64,000 nucleotides of DNA from Desulfatitalea alkaliphila (lineage in GTDB: Bacteria; Desulfobacterota; Desulfobacteria; Desulfobacterales; Desulfosarcinaceae). Both the position numbers and the translations under genes were made by a program. Shown one piece after another: positions 19,083 through 33,603 of the stretch (the first letter of the stretch is position 1; each line of letters begins with the position of its first letter). The notes under the pieces were generated by a model. The model was not told the origin of the DNA. It saw only the letters and a program-made list of their open reading frames with translations, and searched no databases. The stretch covers positions 1-64,000 of the forward strand of contig NZ_JALJRB010000019.1 of NCBI RefSeq assembly GCF_022968795.1, read 5' to 3'.

Positions 19083-19174
19083 GGAGAGGTTGCCGAGTGG
19101 CTGAAGGCCCCGCTCTCGAAAAGCGGTATCCCGTTTACCCGGGATCGTGGGTTCGAATCCCACCCTCTCCGCCA
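19083..19174 (+). tRNA. tRNA-Ser (anticodon CGA)
   Basis: Acceptor stem GGAGAGG pairs with CCTCTCC. Anticodon arm CCGCT-CTCGAAA-AGCGG gives CGA, followed by a long variable arm (class II) and the T-arm GTGGG-TTCGAAT-CCCAC. The 3' end G-CCA is encoded. Confidence 0.97.
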
Positions 19175-19252
19175 TTTCACCGGTAACTCGAACCGCGCAC
19201 AAGTACCATCGAGATCCGGACCGCCCCGCATGCGACGCGTCAAAAGACAAAC

Positions 19253-19346
19253 GGAGAGATGTCCGAGCTGGCCGAAGGAGCACGACTGGAAATCGTGTGT
19301 GCTGTTAATAGCGGCACCGAGGGTTCGAATCCCTCTCTCTCCGCCA
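19253..19346 (+). tRNA. tRNA-Ser (anticodon GGA)
   Basis: Acceptor stem GGAGAGA pairs with TCTCTCC. Anticodon arm CACGA-CTGGAAA-TCGTG gives GGA, with a long variable arm and T-arm GAGGG-TTCGAAT-CCCTC. CCA is encoded. It lies 78 bp after the first tRNA-Ser and is probably co-transcribed. Confidence 0.97.
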
Positions 19347-32336: not shown

Positions 32337-32344
32337 ATAGAGAA

Positions 32345-32399
32345 GATAGTGTTAAGTGTTAAGTGTTAAGTTTTAAGTTAATGAATTCTATCGATTATA
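32345..32399. repeat. Heptad element, plus orientation
   Basis: GATAGTGTTAAGTGTTAAG heptads then TTTTAAGTTAATGAATTC and TATCGATTATA. It lies between the divergent chemotaxis and transporter operons, next to the FliA promoter. A G-run (GGGGGGGTGGGGGGCGGGGG) follows directly at about 32400-32420. The rest up to 32557 holds a GATCCCGATCC string also seen near other elements and no gene. Confidence 0.8.
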
Positions 32400-32557
32400 G
32401 GGGGGGGTGGGGGGCGGGGGTGGGTGCTGTTTCGATCCCGATCCTGCTTCAACCGGGTTGTGGGTTGCGGTTGAATTGTTCGGGGGGTGCGTATATGATT
32501 GGATACGGTTGATGGATATCGACGCTGGCGTTTTCACCATGAAGAAAGGAGGAGCGG

Positions 32558-33079
32558 ATGAAGCAGGATAGCGGTGGTTGGAGCCCTTACATCGCAGGGG
32601 GGCTCAGTGGTGTGGTGGGCATCTTGTCGGTTTGGATCGCCGGCAAATATTTCGGGGCGTCCACCTCGTTCGTACGCACAGCCGGGCTGATCGAGCAGGT
32701 TTTCGGCGCGGATCGTGTGGCCCAAATGGACTATTTCATCAAAGTGGTGCCGCGGATCGACTGGCAGTGGATGTTCGTGGTGGGCATCTTCCTGGGCGCG
32801 ATGATCTCCGCCGTCACCTCCGGATCGTTCAAGCTGCAGGCCGTGCCGGACATGTGGGCCCGGCGGTTCGGCGCCGGCAGCGTCGTGCCGCGGGCCTTGA
32901 CGGCCTTCGTGGGTGGTGTGGTGGCCATGTTCGGCGCCCGTATGGCCGACGGGTGACCCAGCGGTCACGGGTTGAGCGGTTCGCTCCAACTGGCTGTCAG
33001 TGGTTTTATCGCTTTGGTTTGTTTTTTCATCGGTGGCATGATCGTGGCCCGTCTGGTCTACGGAGGAGGTGAACGATGA
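32558..33079 (+). CDS. YeeE/YedE transporter N-terminal half, probable selenoprotein (Sec133)
   Basis: A 173-residue membrane protein read through one in-frame TGA at 32954-32956. Before it: 'A-F-V-G-G-V-V-A-M-F-G-A-R-M-A-D-G'; after it: 'P-S-G-H-G-L-S-G-S-L-Q-L-A-V', then a last membrane helix. The Sulf_transp (YeeE/YedE) family has G-x-x-x-x-x-G-C-T-S-G-H-G here, so TGA replaces the conserved Cys. The frame stays open to TGA 33077-33079, overlapping the next ATG (ATGA). A SECIS-like hairpin follows the internal TGA. The start is behind AAAGGAGGAG. TsuA-type homologues import thiosulfate via conserved Cys residues; substrate here is inferred. Without Sec insertion the product stops at residue 132 and lacks the key motif and last helix. 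Confidence 0.8.
32958..32993 (+). promoter_or_regulatory. Candidate bacterial SECIS element
   Basis: It starts 1 nt after the TGA. The upper stem GAGCG (32974-32978) pairs with CGCUC (32982-32986) around a three-base GUU loop whose first base is G. With one bulged C, GGUU/AACU extends it, and CCAG (32958-32961) can instead pair with CUGG (32990-32993). The loop begins 22 nt after the TGA, inside the usual 16-37 nt range for SelB-recognised hairpins. Confidence 0.65.
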
Positions 33080-33603
33080 AAATGCTCATCTACGGTTTGG
33101 TCACCGGACTCTTTTTCGGTTTTTTACTGCAGAAAGGGCGGGTGCTGCGCTACGACAAGCAGCTCGGCGCCCTGCGCCTGATGGACATGACCATCGTCAA
33201 ATTCATGCTCAGCAGCGTGATTGTCGGCATGGTCGGCATCTATCTGCTCTACGATCTGGGCATGGTGAAACTCTCCATTAAAGCGACCATCCTGGGACCG
33301 GTCATTATCGGTGCGTTGATTTTCGGCATCGGCTGGGGTCTGCTCGGCTATTGTCCCGGCACCTCCATGGGCGCCGTGGGCGAAGGCCGGTGGGATGCTT
33401 TGTGGGGCATTTTGGGGATGGTGGTCGGCGCCGCCTTGTTCGCCGAAGCCTACCCGATGTTACTGAGAACGGTCTACACTTGGGGGGATCTGGGAAAGAT
33501 CACCGTGCCCGAGGTGCTGGGGGTGAGCCACTGGATCATCATTCCCCTTTTCATCGTCGCGGCGGTGTTGATGTTCCGCTGGTTCGAAAAGAAAGGCTTG
33601 TAG
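33076..33603 (+). CDS. YeeE/YedE transporter C-terminal half
   Basis: A 175-residue membrane protein with about five hydrophobic helices. It carries the family's second motif 'G-I-G-W-G-L-L-G-Y-C-P-G-T-S-M-G-A-V-G-E-G-R', with the conserved Cys in G-Y-C-P-G-T. Together with the preceding gene it makes a complete two-repeat YeeE/YedE transporter, as in organisms where the protein is split. GGAGGAGG (33062-33069) serves it from within the end of the first gene. In the assembled transporter, the Cys would face Sec133 of the partner across the pore (inference from the pseudo-symmetric family architecture). Confidence 0.88.
   Translation: MKMLIYGLVTGLFFGFLLQKGRVLRYDKQLGALRLMDMTIVKFMLSSVIVGMVGIYLLYDLGMVKLSIKATILGPVIIGALIFGIGWGLLGYCPGTSMGAVGEGRWDALWGILGMVVGAALFAEAYPMLLRTVYTWGDLGKITVPEVLGVSHWIIIPLFIVAAVLMFRWFEKKGL

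Follow-up and report, generated by a model that had tools for sequence, protein, structure and literature searches.

A probable selenocysteine in one half of a split YeeE/YedE-type sulfur transporter, encoded by an in-frame TGA in Desulfatitalea alkaliphila

INTRODUCTION

Many selenoproteins are redox enzymes. The YeeE/YedE transporter family has a place in the selenoprotein catalogues too: it has an entry among the predicted selenoproteins in two reviews, of which one gives the motif GUxSG and the other (PMC9312934) gives the same accession (WP_012471001.1) and no motif. Both entries cite PMC2398784 and PMC5029168. By word search, YeeE is absent from the main texts of these two papers, and its description may be in their supplements. 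In the literature searched, which included few subscription journals, the YeeE/YedE accession occurred only in the two reviews, and no experimental study of the selenocysteine (Sec) form was found.

The closest described systems are TsuA/YeeE of Spirochaeta thermophila (PDB 6leo, 6lep, 8j4c, and 8k1r), for which a hydrogen-bond relay has been proposed, and the split transporter PmpAB. According to the passage on PmpAB in PMC11582611, a PmpA cysteine matches Cys293 of TsuA, a PmpB cysteine matches Cys91, and a PmpA/PmpB heterodimer is proposed; that study found no evidence for a role of PmpAB in the oxidative sulfur metabolism of Hyphomicrobium denitrificans. For a cable-bacterial YeeE, a polysulfide role is proposed in a passage of PMC13293266. 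The locus described here, located in a window of 64,000 nucleotides (the whole stretch of DNA analyzed), resembles PmpAB in its two-gene build and has an in-frame TGA in place of one of the two cysteine codons.

RESULTS

Gene 1 (32558..33079, plus strand) was assigned as the PmpA-like C-terminal half of a YeeE/YedE transporter on the basis of its Pfam match and its relatives. It starts with the ATG at 32558, preceded by a likely ribosome-binding site read from the sequence (AAAGGAGG, 32545..32552, plus strand), and encodes 173 amino acids if the TGA at codon 133 (32954..32956, plus strand) is read as Sec. A plain table 11 translation stops at residue 132. After this TGA, 40 more sense codons follow before the next in-frame stop (TGA, 33077-33079), and the motif around the codon is GUPSGHG. 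Pfam Sulf_transp (PF04143) aligns residues 6-162 with profile positions 175-310 (77.2 bits; E = 2.1e-21), well over the gathering cutoff of 27 bits, which gene 2 (below) also exceeds. Since this match spans the TGA, the part of gene 1 beyond it is family sequence. The structure prediction of gene 1 (40 sequences; mean pLDDT, 66.8; pTM, 0.39) was too poor for a fold search and was not used. Protein alignment A3 comprised 39 of the 73 listed proteins plus P0001.

Gene 2 (33076..33603, plus strand; 175 amino acids) is, by Pfam and by comparison with 6leo_A, the PmpB-like N-terminal half of the transporter with a Cys91-type cysteine, C93. PF04143 aligns residues 37-169 with profile positions 18-151 (52.6 bits; E = 6.8e-14), and DUF6691 gives a weaker match (E = 2e-7). 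The start codon at 33076 overlaps the stop codon of gene 1 as ATGA, and the likely ribosome-binding site of gene 2, likewise read from the sequence (GGAGGAGG, 33062..33069, plus strand), lies within the post-TGA coding part of gene 1. The predicted transporter is thus encoded by two genes, and the order of its halves is reversed. These readings agree with an earlier note on this DNA, which had placed the TGA at codon 133, at the conserved cysteine of a YeeE/YedE half, had the frame running on for 40 family-like residues, and had described an ATGA overlap with the second half of the transporter whose ribosome site falls inside the extension. Coordinates and alignments bear out the first claim, the Sulf_transp match that crosses the TGA the second, and direct reading of the sequence the third.

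To place the two positions on a solved structure, we compared both genes with TsuA/YeeE of S. thermophila (6leo). U133 of gene 1 aligned with the cysteine of the second GGC motif, which the 6leo numbering together with the PmpAB passage of PMC11582611 identifies as Cys293. Gene 2 aligned with residues 2-118 of 6leo_A (E = 3e-4), with C93 at C91 and Leu24 at C22.

We then asked which codon relatives carry at the aligned site. The gene was found in 8 of the 11 genomes of the genus, with one TGA in all eight. Of the 30 genomes searched for the family, 17 had a match of any kind, as did 153 of the 335 for the class. Loci were taken from the genus, family, and class searches (at most 30 matches each) and from a contig scan, in which the best 80 of 160 confirmed relatives were kept. 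At 123 places in relatives, the aligned codon was TGA (88), TGC (20), or TGT (15) and nothing else, so that the alternation of TGA with cysteine codons foreseen for this site was found, and none of the 88 stop codons was TAA or TAG. The 123 places, and likewise the 119 examined for the partner gene, include genomes present in duplicate (once as a genome locus and once under a contig name) as well as some distant Cys paralogues, among them L018, L026, L034, L035, and L039. With identical or edge-cut contexts removed, 111 places remained (TGA, 76; TGC, 20; TGT, 15); with identical proteins and the short rows L033 and L129 removed as well, the set came to 109 rows (75 Sec and 34 Cys).

By record name, TGA forms occur in Desulfatitalea, Desulfonatronum, Malonomonas rubra, Nitrospirota, a Negativicutes bacterium, and a Riflebacteria bacterium, and Cys forms include Geobacteraceae and Sporomusa ovata; most relatives are metagenome bins, so individual taxon assignments may be in error. 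A quick tree of the 109 proteins requires at least 13 changes of the Sec/Cys label, compared with 29.4 for shuffled labels, and its well-supported branches alone force 3 changes. Sec and Cys forms have thus replaced each other repeatedly and still group by lineage. Two loci, L146 (G146:C142) and L148 (G051:C140), keep the TGA site and have further stops or broken frames, and they look decayed or badly assembled. Genome G051 has another copy with the TGA as its sole stop, and in G142 the TGA is the sole stop within residues 1-168. G228, G265, and G292, for which the class search reported stops, have Cys at the site.

The sequence beyond the TGA is conserved as protein. Among the Sec rows (2,775 pairs), difference rates over the 33 codons after the TGA were 0.228, 0.081, and 0.516 at codon positions 1, 2, and 3, and those over the 33 codons before it were 0.316, 0.272, and 0.582, the latter being somewhat inflated because indels are ignored. 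The low rates at codon positions 1 and 2 after the TGA point to constraint at the protein level beyond the stop. A pseudogene or a sequencing error at gene 1 was considered and rejected in view of this conservation and of TGA being the only type of stop at the site.

The partner gene is the only steady neighbor. It starts at most 60 nt downstream in 108 of the 109 rows, and the stop/start overlap is present in 93 (67 of 75 Sec and 26 of 34 Cys rows). As the overlap also occurs in Cys forms, translational coupling is not special to Sec. The codon for the partner cysteine was TGC at 68 and TGT at 51 of the 119 aligned places and TGA at none of them; among these relatives, selenium is therefore limited to the first position.

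Downstream of the TGA, folding and comparison of relatives indicated a SECIS-like hairpin (32970..32991, plus strand; loop GGTTC, 32978-32982), whose stem begins 14 nt and whose loop begins 22 to 23 nt after the TGA. The folding test used the region 13 to 36 nt after the TGA, which was picked from the window's own hairpin, and Cys rows were treated alike as a control. In the Sec rows (n = 75), the mean folding energy was −9.9, versus −3.9 for synonymous re-coding, and 68 rows scored below 0.05 (51 at or below 0.01). The Cys rows (n = 34) averaged −4.2, versus −3.5 for synonymous re-coding, with six below 0.05 and two at or below 0.01. Thus, 7 of 75 Sec rows failed the test and 6 of 34 Cys rows passed it. 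The window's own hairpin, at 0.043, was only modestly better than synonymous re-coding; the strength of the result lies in the whole set.

In 74 of the 75 Sec rows, the predicted loop opened with G, 22 or 23 nt past the TGA, in line with the claim of the earlier note that a hairpin with a G-first apical loop lies 22 nt past the TGA. Stem cells were paired in 94.1% of cases in alignment A1 (64 of the 75 Sec rows, plus strand only, with the window standing for L017) and in 70.8% in alignment A2 (24 of the 34 Cys rows, plus strand only, with the distant L018, L035, and L039 left out). By these comparisons, the hairpin belongs mainly to TGA forms. Covariation was rejected as an independent proof of the hairpin. 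In two stem pairs, both bases vary, at synonymous sites (11 and 17 rows), and the independent pairs number only 1 and 2 on well-supported branches and 9 and 3 on the whole tree; despite strong cell counts, the variation is clade structured and not significant as independent events.

The machinery for Sec insertion is present in the genome of the window (G000; 5.07 Mb in 98 contigs; 99.68% complete). selA (605.2 bits), selB (379.6 bits), selD (367.2 bits), and the tRNA-Sec gene selC (score, 73.5), the four genes by which the Sec reading could be checked, all exceed their curated cutoffs. They are needed for the Sec claim but are a weak test of it: in the class, 291 of 335 genomes have selB over the cutoff, so that finding the gene says little, and we discarded it as a discriminating test at this level. 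The selD gene of G000 (L151, G000:C16:32576-33502) has one in-frame TGA of its own and probably encodes a selenoprotein as well.

In the window, the pair is followed by a LOG/lysine-decarboxylase-like gene, which is uninformative, no sulfur context was found among the pair's own neighbors, and no TsuB/YeeD-like gene was recognized among the adjacent ORFs. Gene order was set aside as a functional guide, gene 2 being the only constant neighbor. The region that separates a divergent response-regulator-like gene from the transporter (32340-32430) contains a few successive TTAAGTG-like repeats and a G-rich tract, possibly a quadruplex former. Elsewhere in the window, two tRNA-Ser genes with anticodons cga and gga adjoin each other (19083-19346).

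Across relatives, a pyridine nucleotide-disulphide oxidoreductase (Pfam Pyr_redox), which we take to resemble the coenzyme A-disulfide or persulfide reductase type, lies in the flanks of 12 of the 109 loci (10 Sec and 2 Cys), a count that includes the query's own locus, L119. In 11 genomes of the class (∼56 Mb), the same query gave 36 matches, some of which are pieces of one gene; this density corresponds to ∼0.3 expected in the 485 kb of loci, compared with the 12 seen. The cutoffs were 1e-15 for the loci and 1e-30 for the genomes, and 11 of the 12 loci pass 1e-30. Seven of the 12 oxidoreductases are close copies (at least 68% identity), so there are perhaps a handful of independent cases.

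Further neighbors were seen at single loci. A two-domain rhodanese stands beside three Cys-form loci, and a metallo-beta-lactamase/rhodanese protein adjoins L026. Upstream of the Cys-form pair of L065 (Geobacteraceae), the oxidoreductase carries additional rhodanese, TusA, and DsrE-like domains in a fusion. The genome of the window has a second, Cys-type pair of transporter halves behind a two-domain rhodanese (L018, G000:C1:99067-99522). At L077, an ArsR-type regulator of unassigned ligand adjoins a Cys-form pair.

Two oxidoreductase genes away from the transporter also have in-frame TGAs. L153 (G000:C23:319329-320666), in the genome of the window, encodes a pyridine nucleotide-disulphide oxidoreductase that shares 42% identity with the L119 neighbor. 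Its TGA stands at the N-terminal cysteine of that neighbor (SYGAC; here SYSA-TGA), with full-length homology after it, and L153 is likely another selenoprotein, as judged from this alignment. A table in PMC2398784 gives "NADH oxidase PRK09564" as a selenoprotein family, which may be that of L153. L154 (G225:C172:42420-43757), a more distant oxidoreductase of this kind (31% identity), has one in-frame TGA near the same place, beside an alignment gap.

DISCUSSION

Gene 1 looks truncated but most likely encodes a complete transporter half, for sulfur, in which a stop codon is read as Sec. Sec at codon 133 is strongly supported by the comparisons above, and the claim of the earlier note that gene 1 encodes a selenoprotein YeeE/YedE half has the sel genes, the codon alternation, and the downstream hairpin all in its favor. 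We consider it highly probable that the two genes encode a two-subunit transporter of the PmpAB type for sulfane sulfur or thiosulfate, with SelB-read Sec133 at the entry and C93 as the second residue of the path.

A selenoprotein might instead carry selenium, with selenite, selenide, or seleno-sulfur species as the cargo of a YedE-type importer that itself uses Sec. A Methanococcus maripaludis YedE-like protein is described in a passage of PMC11582611 as involved in selenium transport, and the NCBIfam selenium YedE models do match the pair, albeit weakly: NF033796 gives 31.7 and 33.9 bits and TIGR04112 gives 28.5 bits, far below the respective cutoffs of 350 and 200 bits. Furthermore, SelA, SelB, and SelD of G000, the three proteins used as queries, had no match up to an E value of 1e-10 in the 109 loci (average, 4.4 kb). 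Selenium as the cargo is therefore improbable. In the same NCBIfam scan, the TsuA equivalog NF052577 gave 50.0 and 44.4 bits, below its cutoff of 400 bits, and no model specific to this selenoprotein was returned.

It is highly improbable that Sec serves to bind or export soft metals or metalloids, such as mercury or arsenic, instead of moving sulfur. A passage of PMC13188914 connects most predicted Sec transporters and their associated proteins with resistance to metals or metalloids; here, no metal-resistance gene was recognized among the neighbors, which were inspected mostly by eye and, for nine neighboring or paralogous proteins (the ArsR-type regulator at L077 among them), with Pfam, and the studied relatives, as portrayed in the passages cited above, handle sulfur. 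That the TGA is an ordinary stop, leaving a 132-residue truncated protein or pseudogene remnant with gene 2 working alone, is hardly credible: it would suit the table 11 reading and the decayed-looking copies in two other genomes, but the only alternatives to TGA at the site are Cys codons, never TAA or TAG, codon positions 1 and 2 are conserved past the TGA, and the hairpin goes largely with the TGA forms.

In the preferred reading, a PmpAB-type sulfur transporter with Sec at its entry, SelB and Sec-tRNA would read UGA 133 with the help of the downstream hairpin, giving one selenoprotein of 173 residues. By alignment, Sec133 stands where TsuA has Cys293, the path's first cysteine, and C93 of the partner stands where it has Cys91, the second. 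The pair would then move thiosulfate or other sulfane sulfur across the membrane, by analogy with TsuA, with SoxT as treated in PMC11582611, and with the role suggested for the cable-bacterial YeeE in PMC13293266. The sulfane-sulfur-type reductase genes, more frequent in the flanks of related loci than expected, favor this reading; their restriction to a minority of those loci and the lack of sulfur context in the window weigh against it. Given the overlap of the partner's start with the gene 1 stop, complete read-through probably also promotes translation of the partner.

Sec would make the relay residue more reactive, and the selenolate may assist by forming a short-lived Se-S contact with the incoming sulfur or by exchanging with it. 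A selenol is largely ionized at neutral pH. It should for this reason be a poorer hydrogen-bond donor than a thiol, and we therefore find a short-lived Se-S bond more plausible than a relay by hydrogen bonds alone, as a matter of argument rather than data. One may go further and speculate that Sec on the translocation path forms a covalent Se-S entry relay and that selenium supply sets the amount of the partner via the overlap; we regard this extension as rather doubtful. A covalent Se-S relay, if true, would distinguish this branch from TsuA with its proposed hydrogen-bond relay.

As YeeE/YedE is already catalogued as a selenoprotein, gene 1 adds a member to a known family. Its interest lies in the interchange of Sec and Cys at one transporter position, which in the relative of solved structure is the first to encounter the substrate; the two forms offer a natural comparison for hydrogen-bond versus covalent passage of sulfur in YeeE-type transporters. 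The locus is also a practical trap, as table 11 ends gene 1 at residue 132 and the NCBIfam scan gave no specific model.

Like the catalogued YeeE/YedE selenoprotein, gene 1 belongs to this Pfam family, and its GUPSG fits the GUxSG of the review entry, the comparison covering these two features. As in TsuA/YeeE of S. thermophila, there are homologous halves, and the first and second cysteine positions of the path are conserved. Unlike that transporter, which is one chain, the halves lie in two genes and in swapped order, and the third cysteine (C22) corresponds to Leu24 of the partner, leaving the set of three (22, 91, and 293) incomplete. The likeness to PmpA/PmpB is that two short genes each encode one TsuA half with one conserved Cys position; the pair has the split build given in PMC11582611, the comparison being with the description there rather than with PmpA and PmpB sequences. 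Unlike PmpA/PmpB as described in that passage, the proteins here are 173 and 175 amino acids long, compared with ∼130 there, and Sec replaces the cysteine of PmpA.
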